Source of the DNA: Bacilli bacterium
GTDB lineage: Bacteria; Bacillota_I; Bacilli_A; RF39; UBA660
Direction: 5' to 3'
Assembly: GCA_017459965.1 (NCBI GenBank)
Contig: JAFUBW010000010.1
Location: 1 to 47,712, forward strand
Length of the DNA stretch: 47,712 nucleotides
A program made the position numbers and the translations under genes. Below the pieces are notes generated by a model. The model searched no databases. It was not told the DNA's origin and worked only from the letters and a program-made list of their open reading frames with translations. Shown in pieces: positions 1 through 879 of the stretch. Position 1 is the stretch's first letter. The number at the start of each line of letters is the position of its first letter.

Positions 1-376
1 AACTACTTGCAGAAAGTAAAAATTTGCCTTCTATTTTTTCCCATGTTCCGCCTAATCTTGTTTGAACTGATTCTACAGTACTATCTGTTGCTGATATATA
101 TATACTTCCAACTGGATATGTTTTATCTAAAAAATTATTTTCTAAATTTGTTATTCTTTCGTTAATATTTGTATAACTAGAATTGTATAATTTTTTATTA
201 TCTGACTTTATATTATAATATTTTTCTTCACTAGAATTATATGATTTATTTACTGCATAAACAGAAACAAAAGAACAAATAAAAATAAAAAACATACCAA
301 TAAAAAAAATTATATTTTCTTTTGATTTAAAGAAACCAAAAAAGGCCTGGGTTTTATTAAAGCGTTTAAGACTCAT
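1..376 (-). CDS. Membrane-anchored protein with phage-baseplate-like (Gp10_C-type) domain, C-terminus cut off by window edge
   Basis: The frame is open from an ATG at 374-376 to the window edge, giving 125 residues without a stop. Residues ~20-41 form one hydrophobic segment (signal anchor), followed by a polar linker rich in Asn, Ser and Lys with a short coiled-coil look. From residue ~86 comes YPVGSIYIS, then LGGTWEKIEGKFLLSA. This is the YPVGSIY...GGTWE...FLL signature of C-terminal domains in phage baseplate and tail proteins (Gp10_C-like). A cell-bound, outward-facing protein using a phage-type binding domain is the likely reading; the ligand is unknown. An AGGT ribosome site lies 7 bases before the ATG. 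The gene stands alone behind the terminator of its neighbour and a C/G homopolymer tract. The domain is recognised by motif only, and the missing C-terminus limits certainty. Confidence 0.6.
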   Translation of the reverse strand, partial: MSLKRFNKTQAFFGFFKSKENIIFFIGMFFIFICSFVSVYAVNKSYNSSEEKYYNIKSDNKKLYNSSYTNINERITNLENNFLDKTYPVGSIYISATDSTVESVQTRLGGTWEKIEGKFLLSASS

Positions 377-407
377 ATAAAATACCTATAATACCTAATA
401 TTACTCT

Positions 408-420
408 CCCCCCCCCGGGG
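408..420. repeat. C9G4 homopolymer tract upstream of the baseplate-like gene
   Basis: Nine C followed by four G on the plus strand (G9 preceded by C4 on the coding strand) in otherwise very AT-rich DNA. It lies 32-44 bases before the ATG at 376. It falls between a possible -35 (TTTTCA, 431-436) and the AT-rich region that would hold the -10. Tracts of this length are prone to slippage, so length may tune transcription of the gene at 1-376. A sequencing or assembly artefact cannot be excluded. Confidence 0.6.
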
Positions 421-437
421 ATACTTTTTTTGAAAAT

Positions 438-462
438 AAAAAAAGATTAACTAATGTTAATC
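438..462 (-). terminator. Terminator of the rubrerythrin-trmL operon
   Basis: Stem GATTAAC/GTTAATC with a 4-base loop followed by seven T on the minus strand. It overlaps the stop codon of the gene at 457-879. Confidence 0.8.
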
Positions 463-879
463 TTCACAATCTAATTTTACTTCTGTATTAAAGTCTGTTT
501 TTGTATATGGTTCTTTTGGATAAATAACTACCATAGTTTTTTCTTTACTACATTTTTTATTGCTAATTAAAAATTTATTAATTGATTCTTTATTTTCATC
601 ACTATATTTTGATAATTCAACTAAATTAAATGAAAGCCCAATGTCTTTAAATTTAGCTAAAAAATTAGTTAATTCTTCATCTGATTTATCTATTTTAGTA
701 ACTTCATAGTAATAATCTTTATATATTGTTTCACCCATTTTAGTTAATTCATTTGAAAATTCATCTTTATTGACACCTGGATTTTTTATGTTATAAAAGA
801 AAATATATGATAAAAATCCTAATATCATTAAAAATATAATTAATAAACATACTGCGATTATTGGTTTTCTTTTTTTCAT
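457..879 (-). CDS. Small membrane-anchored protein of unknown function
   Basis: 140 residues, not recognised. Basic N-terminus (MKKRK) and one strong membrane segment at residues ~8-29, then about 110 residues of polar, Lys/Asp/Glu-rich sequence predicted to sit outside the cell. It has two cysteines in the exported part (near 109 and 138), which could form a disulfide, plus one Cys in the membrane segment. The start has an AAAGGTGAT ribosome site. It is the last gene of an operon with trmL (14 bases away) and rubrerythrin; a terminator overlaps its stop. Nothing in the context fixes a role. Confidence 0.75.
   Translation of the reverse strand: MKKRKPIIAVCLLIIFLMILGFLSYIFFYNIKNPGVNKDEFSNELTKMGETIYKDYYYEVTKIDKSDEELTNFLAKFKDIGLSFNLVELSKYSDENKESINKFLISNKKCSKEKTMVVIYPKEPYTKTDFNTEVKLDCED

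Follow-up and report, generated by a model that had tools for sequence, protein, structure and literature searches.

The window, that is, the whole 47,712-nucleotide stretch of DNA analysed here, is contig C16 of a 1.06-Mb genome in 23 contigs (about 90% complete). Near its first letters, a C/G tract lies between two minus-strand genes (Table 1). In plus-strand coordinates, the tract consists of C9 (408−416) and G4 (417−420); on the gene strand, C4G9 is followed by 31 nt and then by the ATG (376−374), in agreement with the distance of 32−44 bases before the start given in the initial annotation. The same annotation regarded C9G4 as improbable by chance in AT-rich DNA, and the counts bear this out: apart from C9, no run of C or G in the 47.7 kb exceeds four bases, and nine consecutive C, found once when either strand is counted, were absent from all 100 dinucleotide-preserving shuffles. 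A sigma-70 scan of the window found no promoter-like −35/−10 pair spanning the tract and no recognisable −35. Judging from relatives, in which the −10 directly follows the tract, the −10 of the window promoter would be the hexamer after it, and AGG (387−385, minus strand) forms a weak Shine-Dalgarno before the ATG. Since the upstream gene ends in a terminator-like hairpin, the tract probably opens a separate, independent transcription unit; hairpins were present too at the three other unit copies that were folded. Elsewhere in the window, a tmRNA gene lies on the minus strand (21626−22006), with the tag GNKIKSAVASLFRSNSLALA.

Table 1 Features at the tract and in the interrupted copy on contig C23 (window positions unless a locus is named).
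Feature	Position	Strand	Remarks
Putatively switched gene, 5′ part	2..376	minus	125 aa ORF that runs off the window; start of a Gp10_C-like head
Right half	377..407	minus	Conserved; −10-like hexamers TAATAT (403−398) and TATTAT (393−388); ATG at 376
Homopolymer tract	408..420	minus	C4G9 on the gene strand, C9G4 on the plus strand; putative slippage-prone switch; aligns with 13 other tracts of the genome
Left box AAAAAAAGTATCCCC	417..431	minus	Conserved; family consensus A-run-GTRWCCC[C]; in place of a −35 region, or a regulator site
Terminator-like hairpin	442−465, T-run 435−441 (whole 435..465)	minus	End of upstream gene; −9.0 kcal/mol, z −2.58
Upstream gene	457..879	minus	Same strand as the tract gene; 140 aa; outside the switch
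Element with large serine recombinase and Bro-N protein	L054 143−3917 (C23)		Exactly inside a G tract

The protein encoded behind the tract comprises, in order, a short basic N-terminus, a hydrophobic anchor, a stalk and the start of a Gp10_C-like (phage baseplate-like) head. The match to Gp10_C has an E value of 1.3e-5 and 26.6 bits, just under the Pfam cut-off of 27 bits, and a relative on contig C21 scores 40.5 bits. An N-terminal hydrophobic segment is present, and the description of this protein as membrane-anchored and outward-facing is a reasonable presumption. The final 134 nt of C21 equal window 1−134, and the window gene may continue there; the join is uncertain because window 1−142 has a 99% match at another C21 site as well. 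Near the possible continuation, a very large protein of 1357 aa is predicted (L039 1492−5565). The structure predicted for the C21 relative (269 aa, single sequence) had a mean pLDDT of 38.6 and was set aside.

A search for like tracts before other surface genes, which the initial annotation had proposed as a check, was strongly positive. The genome has 15 runs of at least seven G and 14 of at least eight, and all 14 of the latter lie inside one repeated unit. The alignment of the 14 tracts gives this unit as A-run-GTRWCCC(C)-G8−10-TAAYATATTAG..TATTAT, then AGG and ATG; AGTAATATTAG replaces TAAYATATTAG in some aligned copies, and the window copy has AGAG before this element. Twelve copies are complete (C5, C7, C10, C11, C12, C15, C16, C18, two on C19, C20 and C22), and the remaining two tracts are the halves of a single C23 unit split by an insertion. 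On C7, the contig stops upstream of one more gene start, short of where its tract would be expected. The left box is common to 13 of the 14 rows, the exception being C23_right, where the left half is displaced by the inserted element, and the DNA farther upstream is unconserved. The number of G varies among the copies, so the spacing from the box to the −10 varies too. The tract-to-ATG distance is 29 nt in the own-genome copies listed and 31 nt in the window, inside the main range of relatives. An exact-pattern search for the unit in IMG/VR gave 0 matches, and a DNA-level search of seven other genomes of the genus gave weak matches only (E at least 0.0059).

The genes behind these units share a short basic N-terminus and a hydrophobic segment. 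The stalk motif SSDNVQGAIDELY occurs in most copies long enough to judge and is absent from the window copy. Identity was compared for five genes in blocks of 60 columns counted from the ATG. In four of them, blocks 1, 3, 4 and 5 are 91−100% identical and block 2 is mostly gap, while the fifth, on C12, has 63−65% identity in block 3 and 83−85% in block 4; from block 7 onward identity is mostly 30−60%. Where the gene is complete, the heads differ. Those of L043 and L050 match virion or tail families weakly, that of L042 matches a family of unknown function, and the heads of L051 and the incomplete L045 gave no family match. The proteins of this dispersed family are probably membrane-anchored, with heads that differ and are in part phage-tail-like.

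Of 60 related genomes, 42 have runs of eight G, as do six of the eight genomes of the same genus (own included). The pattern TTGACA-N5−10-G8 was found in 42 of the 193 family genomes, against 2/193 for the reversed pattern; the other 151, the own genome among them with 0 matches, lack it. We also evaluated 51 tracts from 11 genomes of relatives, a subset of the tracts present there, fetched regardless of their promoters. An exact TTGACA stood at most 17 nt upstream of 23 of these tracts (0 with reversed flanks), both boxes scored at least 5/6 in 17 (again 0 with reversed flanks), and the −10 alone was found in 18, as compared with five for reversed flanks. In a set of 62 TTGACA promoters, many had been picked for TTGACA but none on account of the −10. 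The best −10 immediately followed the tract in 54 of them, and it scored at least 5/6 in 48. The spacer measured 17−19 in 48 of the 62 (17 in 10, 18 in 16 and 19 in 22). Usable ORFs followed 72 of 108 tracts, the other 36 lacking one, and a hydrophobic N-terminus was found in 63 of these 72 ORFs, compared with 19 of the 48 window ORFs of at least 100 aa. In L055, L074 and L099, from relatives, a possible start codon closely precedes the G tract, the layout of frameshift-type phase variation. A search of genome contigs for TTGACA-G7-TATAMT gave leads only, among the matches listed and without a control; the 18 genomes picked from these matches were left out, as their use as evidence would be circular, and the contig search with protein alignment confirmed none of 473 pattern stretches.

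Searched with a profile of the family start, 98 genomes yielded relatives in 11, among them the own genome. In G024, which belongs to another genus, upstream DNA is available for nine of the 11 homologues, and each of the nine is preceded by TTGACA-N9-G9/10-TAGAAT or TATATT, with the homopolymer between −35 and −10, an arrangement not seen in the window copy. Six of the 11 homologues in G109 have TTGACA and G9−12, and the other five lack a tract. Among the 31 homologues from elsewhere whose upstream DNA was examined, a tract of at least eight G lies within 130−150 nt in 20 and in none of the remaining 11, and exact TTGACA precedes the tract in 15 of those 20. In L287, L296 and L326 (G008), a near-palindrome such as GTGTGCAGTATGCACAC stands before the tract of the homologues, replacing TTGACA. 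The TTGACA-tract arrangement of the homologues is the strongest evidence that the window tract may act as a promoter switch.

Tract lengths were then compared within groups of promoters from the same genome, a group allowing at most one mismatch in the near flanks (10 nt to the left and 12 to the right of the tract). The length differs inside five of the 12 paralogue groups and is constant in seven, these being differences between copies, not between cells. The variable groups are those of G019 (13, 10, 14, 9, 9), G017 (11, 13), G127 (11, 10) and G128 (9, 10), together with one of the own genome (8, 9, 9, 9, 8, 8). Invariant groups include another of the own genome (9, 9, 9) and one of G028 (9 in 5/5). 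The own-genome range is small, 8−10 only, and the fetched tracts hardly vary in two relatives whose promoters have a similar box-tract-box layout (8 in 6/6 in G011 and 9 in 10/12 in G028).

Taken together, these results make the tract a probable simple-sequence contingency locus, driven by slippage and placed in the promoter of a putative surface-protein gene. In keeping with a broad definition of promoter-homopolymer contingency loci, the run stands far above chance and lies just upstream of putative surface genes. Slipped-strand mispairing would alter the G count, which would set the distance from an upstream element (TTGACA in many relatives, the A-run-GTRWCCC box in the own genome) to the −10 box just past the tract, and the changed distance would raise or lower transcription. 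With 12 complete promoter copies and a 13th that is split, each before a similar membrane-anchor start, independent slippage per copy could make cells differ in the combination of surface heads that they carry. We infer slippage in living cells, the transcription effect, surface exposure and a benefit, such as evading phage, host or neighbours. The phase-variation switch put forward in the initial annotation is supported overall by the multiplicity of the unit, the promoters of homologues and the length differences among some paralogues. The accompanying statement that length alters promoter spacing needs qualification: the window has no recognisable −35, whereas in homologues the tract does lie between TTGACA and a TATAAT-like box. 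At the window promoter, a spacing effect is thus suggested by homology and geometry.

In the C23 copy, the left half of the unit ends in G9, 3775 bp follow, and another G9 precedes the right half with the gene start; 142 nt separate the right junction from a contig end. The insert encodes a 284-aa Bro-N protein and a 663-aa large serine recombinase (L054 345−2336) whose Resolvase N-terminal (1.4e-15), Recombinase (5.4e-11) and zinc-ribbon (5.6e-7) domains exceed the Pfam cut-offs and which also matches the phrog_95 integrase. Within the Recombinase region, residues 320−362 match a LysM domain (E 5.3e-11); a literature search for LysM together with a large serine recombinase returned nothing. 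No relatives of the recombinase were confirmed in IMG/VR. TTGACA-G8 tracts were present in five of 12 relatives with a recombinase match and in 37 of 180 without, which is no clear association. The recombinase as the cause of all tracts was set aside, given one insertion and these counts.

The insertion also bears on an alternative in which the G tract with its flanking boxes does not slip but is conserved as a fixed site for protein binding or recombination, such as a large serine recombinase attachment site. An element placed exactly between the unit halves with G9 at both junctions would fit such a site, as would the conservation of both flanking boxes in the own genome; the somewhat higher frequency of tracts with a recombinase match involves too few genomes to decide. 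Yet the insertion is single, the DNA examined at 12 recombinase-homologue loci in relatives contains no run of six or more G or C, no such recombinase was found at E<=1e-60 in the tract-rich G019 and G024, and the flanks in many relatives are plain TTGACA and TATAAT-like boxes, so that a fixed site is improbable. Slightly better placed, and still unlikely, is a fixed-length spacer in an activator-dependent regulon promoter, G-rich by descent, whose copies are switched together by a trans-acting factor. The own genome does lack any TTGACA-like box upstream of the tracts, the A-run-GTRWCCC box is kept in 13 of 14 rows with unconserved DNA farther upstream, and lengths span 8−10 only, all of which would fit such a regulon. 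However, copies do vary in length, the run is kept in homologues of other genera despite changed flanks, and a passive long G run would be unlikely to last in DNA of about 25% GC.

Two further readings carry much less weight. C9G4-T7 could be an intrinsic terminator on the plus strand, since a terminator scanner flags 405−421 with the T-run (one hit, against a shuffle mean of 0.1). We regard this as very improbable, because the stem has five pairs only, the T-run starts 3 nt past it, the 404 bases available before the tract hold no plus-strand ORF of at least 80 aa, and the palindrome is absent from most TTGACA-type relatives. An assembly, linker or contig-end artefact would be in line with most own-genome copies lying close to the ends of contigs, where assembly presumably breaks at the conserved 5′ coding repeat; the C10, C19b and C20 copies lie well inside contigs, and because many other genomes show the same tract arrangement, the chance of an artefact is negligible.

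The proposed slippage-driven contingency locus would belong to a class of mechanism that is already known, in a setting that we did not find described: our search of open-licence papers found nothing relevant on phase variation, whether in RF39 or in uncultured Bacilli. The best-known examples of poly-G promoter switching of surface genes come from pathogens, among them Neisseria and Bordetella. In Neisseria meningitidis opc, porA and fetA, the homopolymer lies between −35 and −10 (PMC2791445). As in these promoters, a G/C homopolymer here would form the promoter spacer before a putative surface-protein gene, the relatives having TTGACA-tract-TATAAT-like promoters with spacers mostly of 17−19. 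Unlike the Neisseria loci, the window promoter has no recognisable −35 and belongs to an unrelated bacterium, and 13 places in one genome bear the putative switch together with a common 5′ coding cassette. In Bordetella pertussis fim2, fim3 and fimX, the C-stretch goes with a conserved fim box (PMC1891110). The two systems share a conserved box, C/G tract and −10 common to several paralogous surface genes, and the fim promoter is the closest parallel for the window promoter because a conserved box stands where the −35 is missing. Unlike fim, the copy number is higher here, the proteins are partly tail-fibre-like rather than fimbrial subunits, and the box is a candidate activator site. The Mycoplasma vlp genes (poly-A promoter tract) and vlhA/pMGA genes (GAA repeats) are surface-lipoprotein families in which each copy has its own repeat. 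They resemble the present family in being multi-copy, with a shared promoter and N-terminus and a variable surface part, but differ in repeat unit and protein family. Our results indicate that surface genes in many members of this small-genome family, apparently uncultured Bacilli, would be controlled by sets of poly-G promoter switches.

The C23 element resembles phage and integrative elements with large serine recombinases in encoding the Resolvase, Recombinase and zinc-ribbon domains, and it differs from them in being inserted within a promoter G tract and in the LysM domain inside the Recombinase region. It is conceivable, if rather doubtful, that the phase-variable tract is at the same time the attachment site of this element, slippage and integration together forming a two-layer surface switch. 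If so, integration into the G run would part the upstream box from the −10 and the gene, and the element could pass from one to another of the genome's 12 other near-identical sites.
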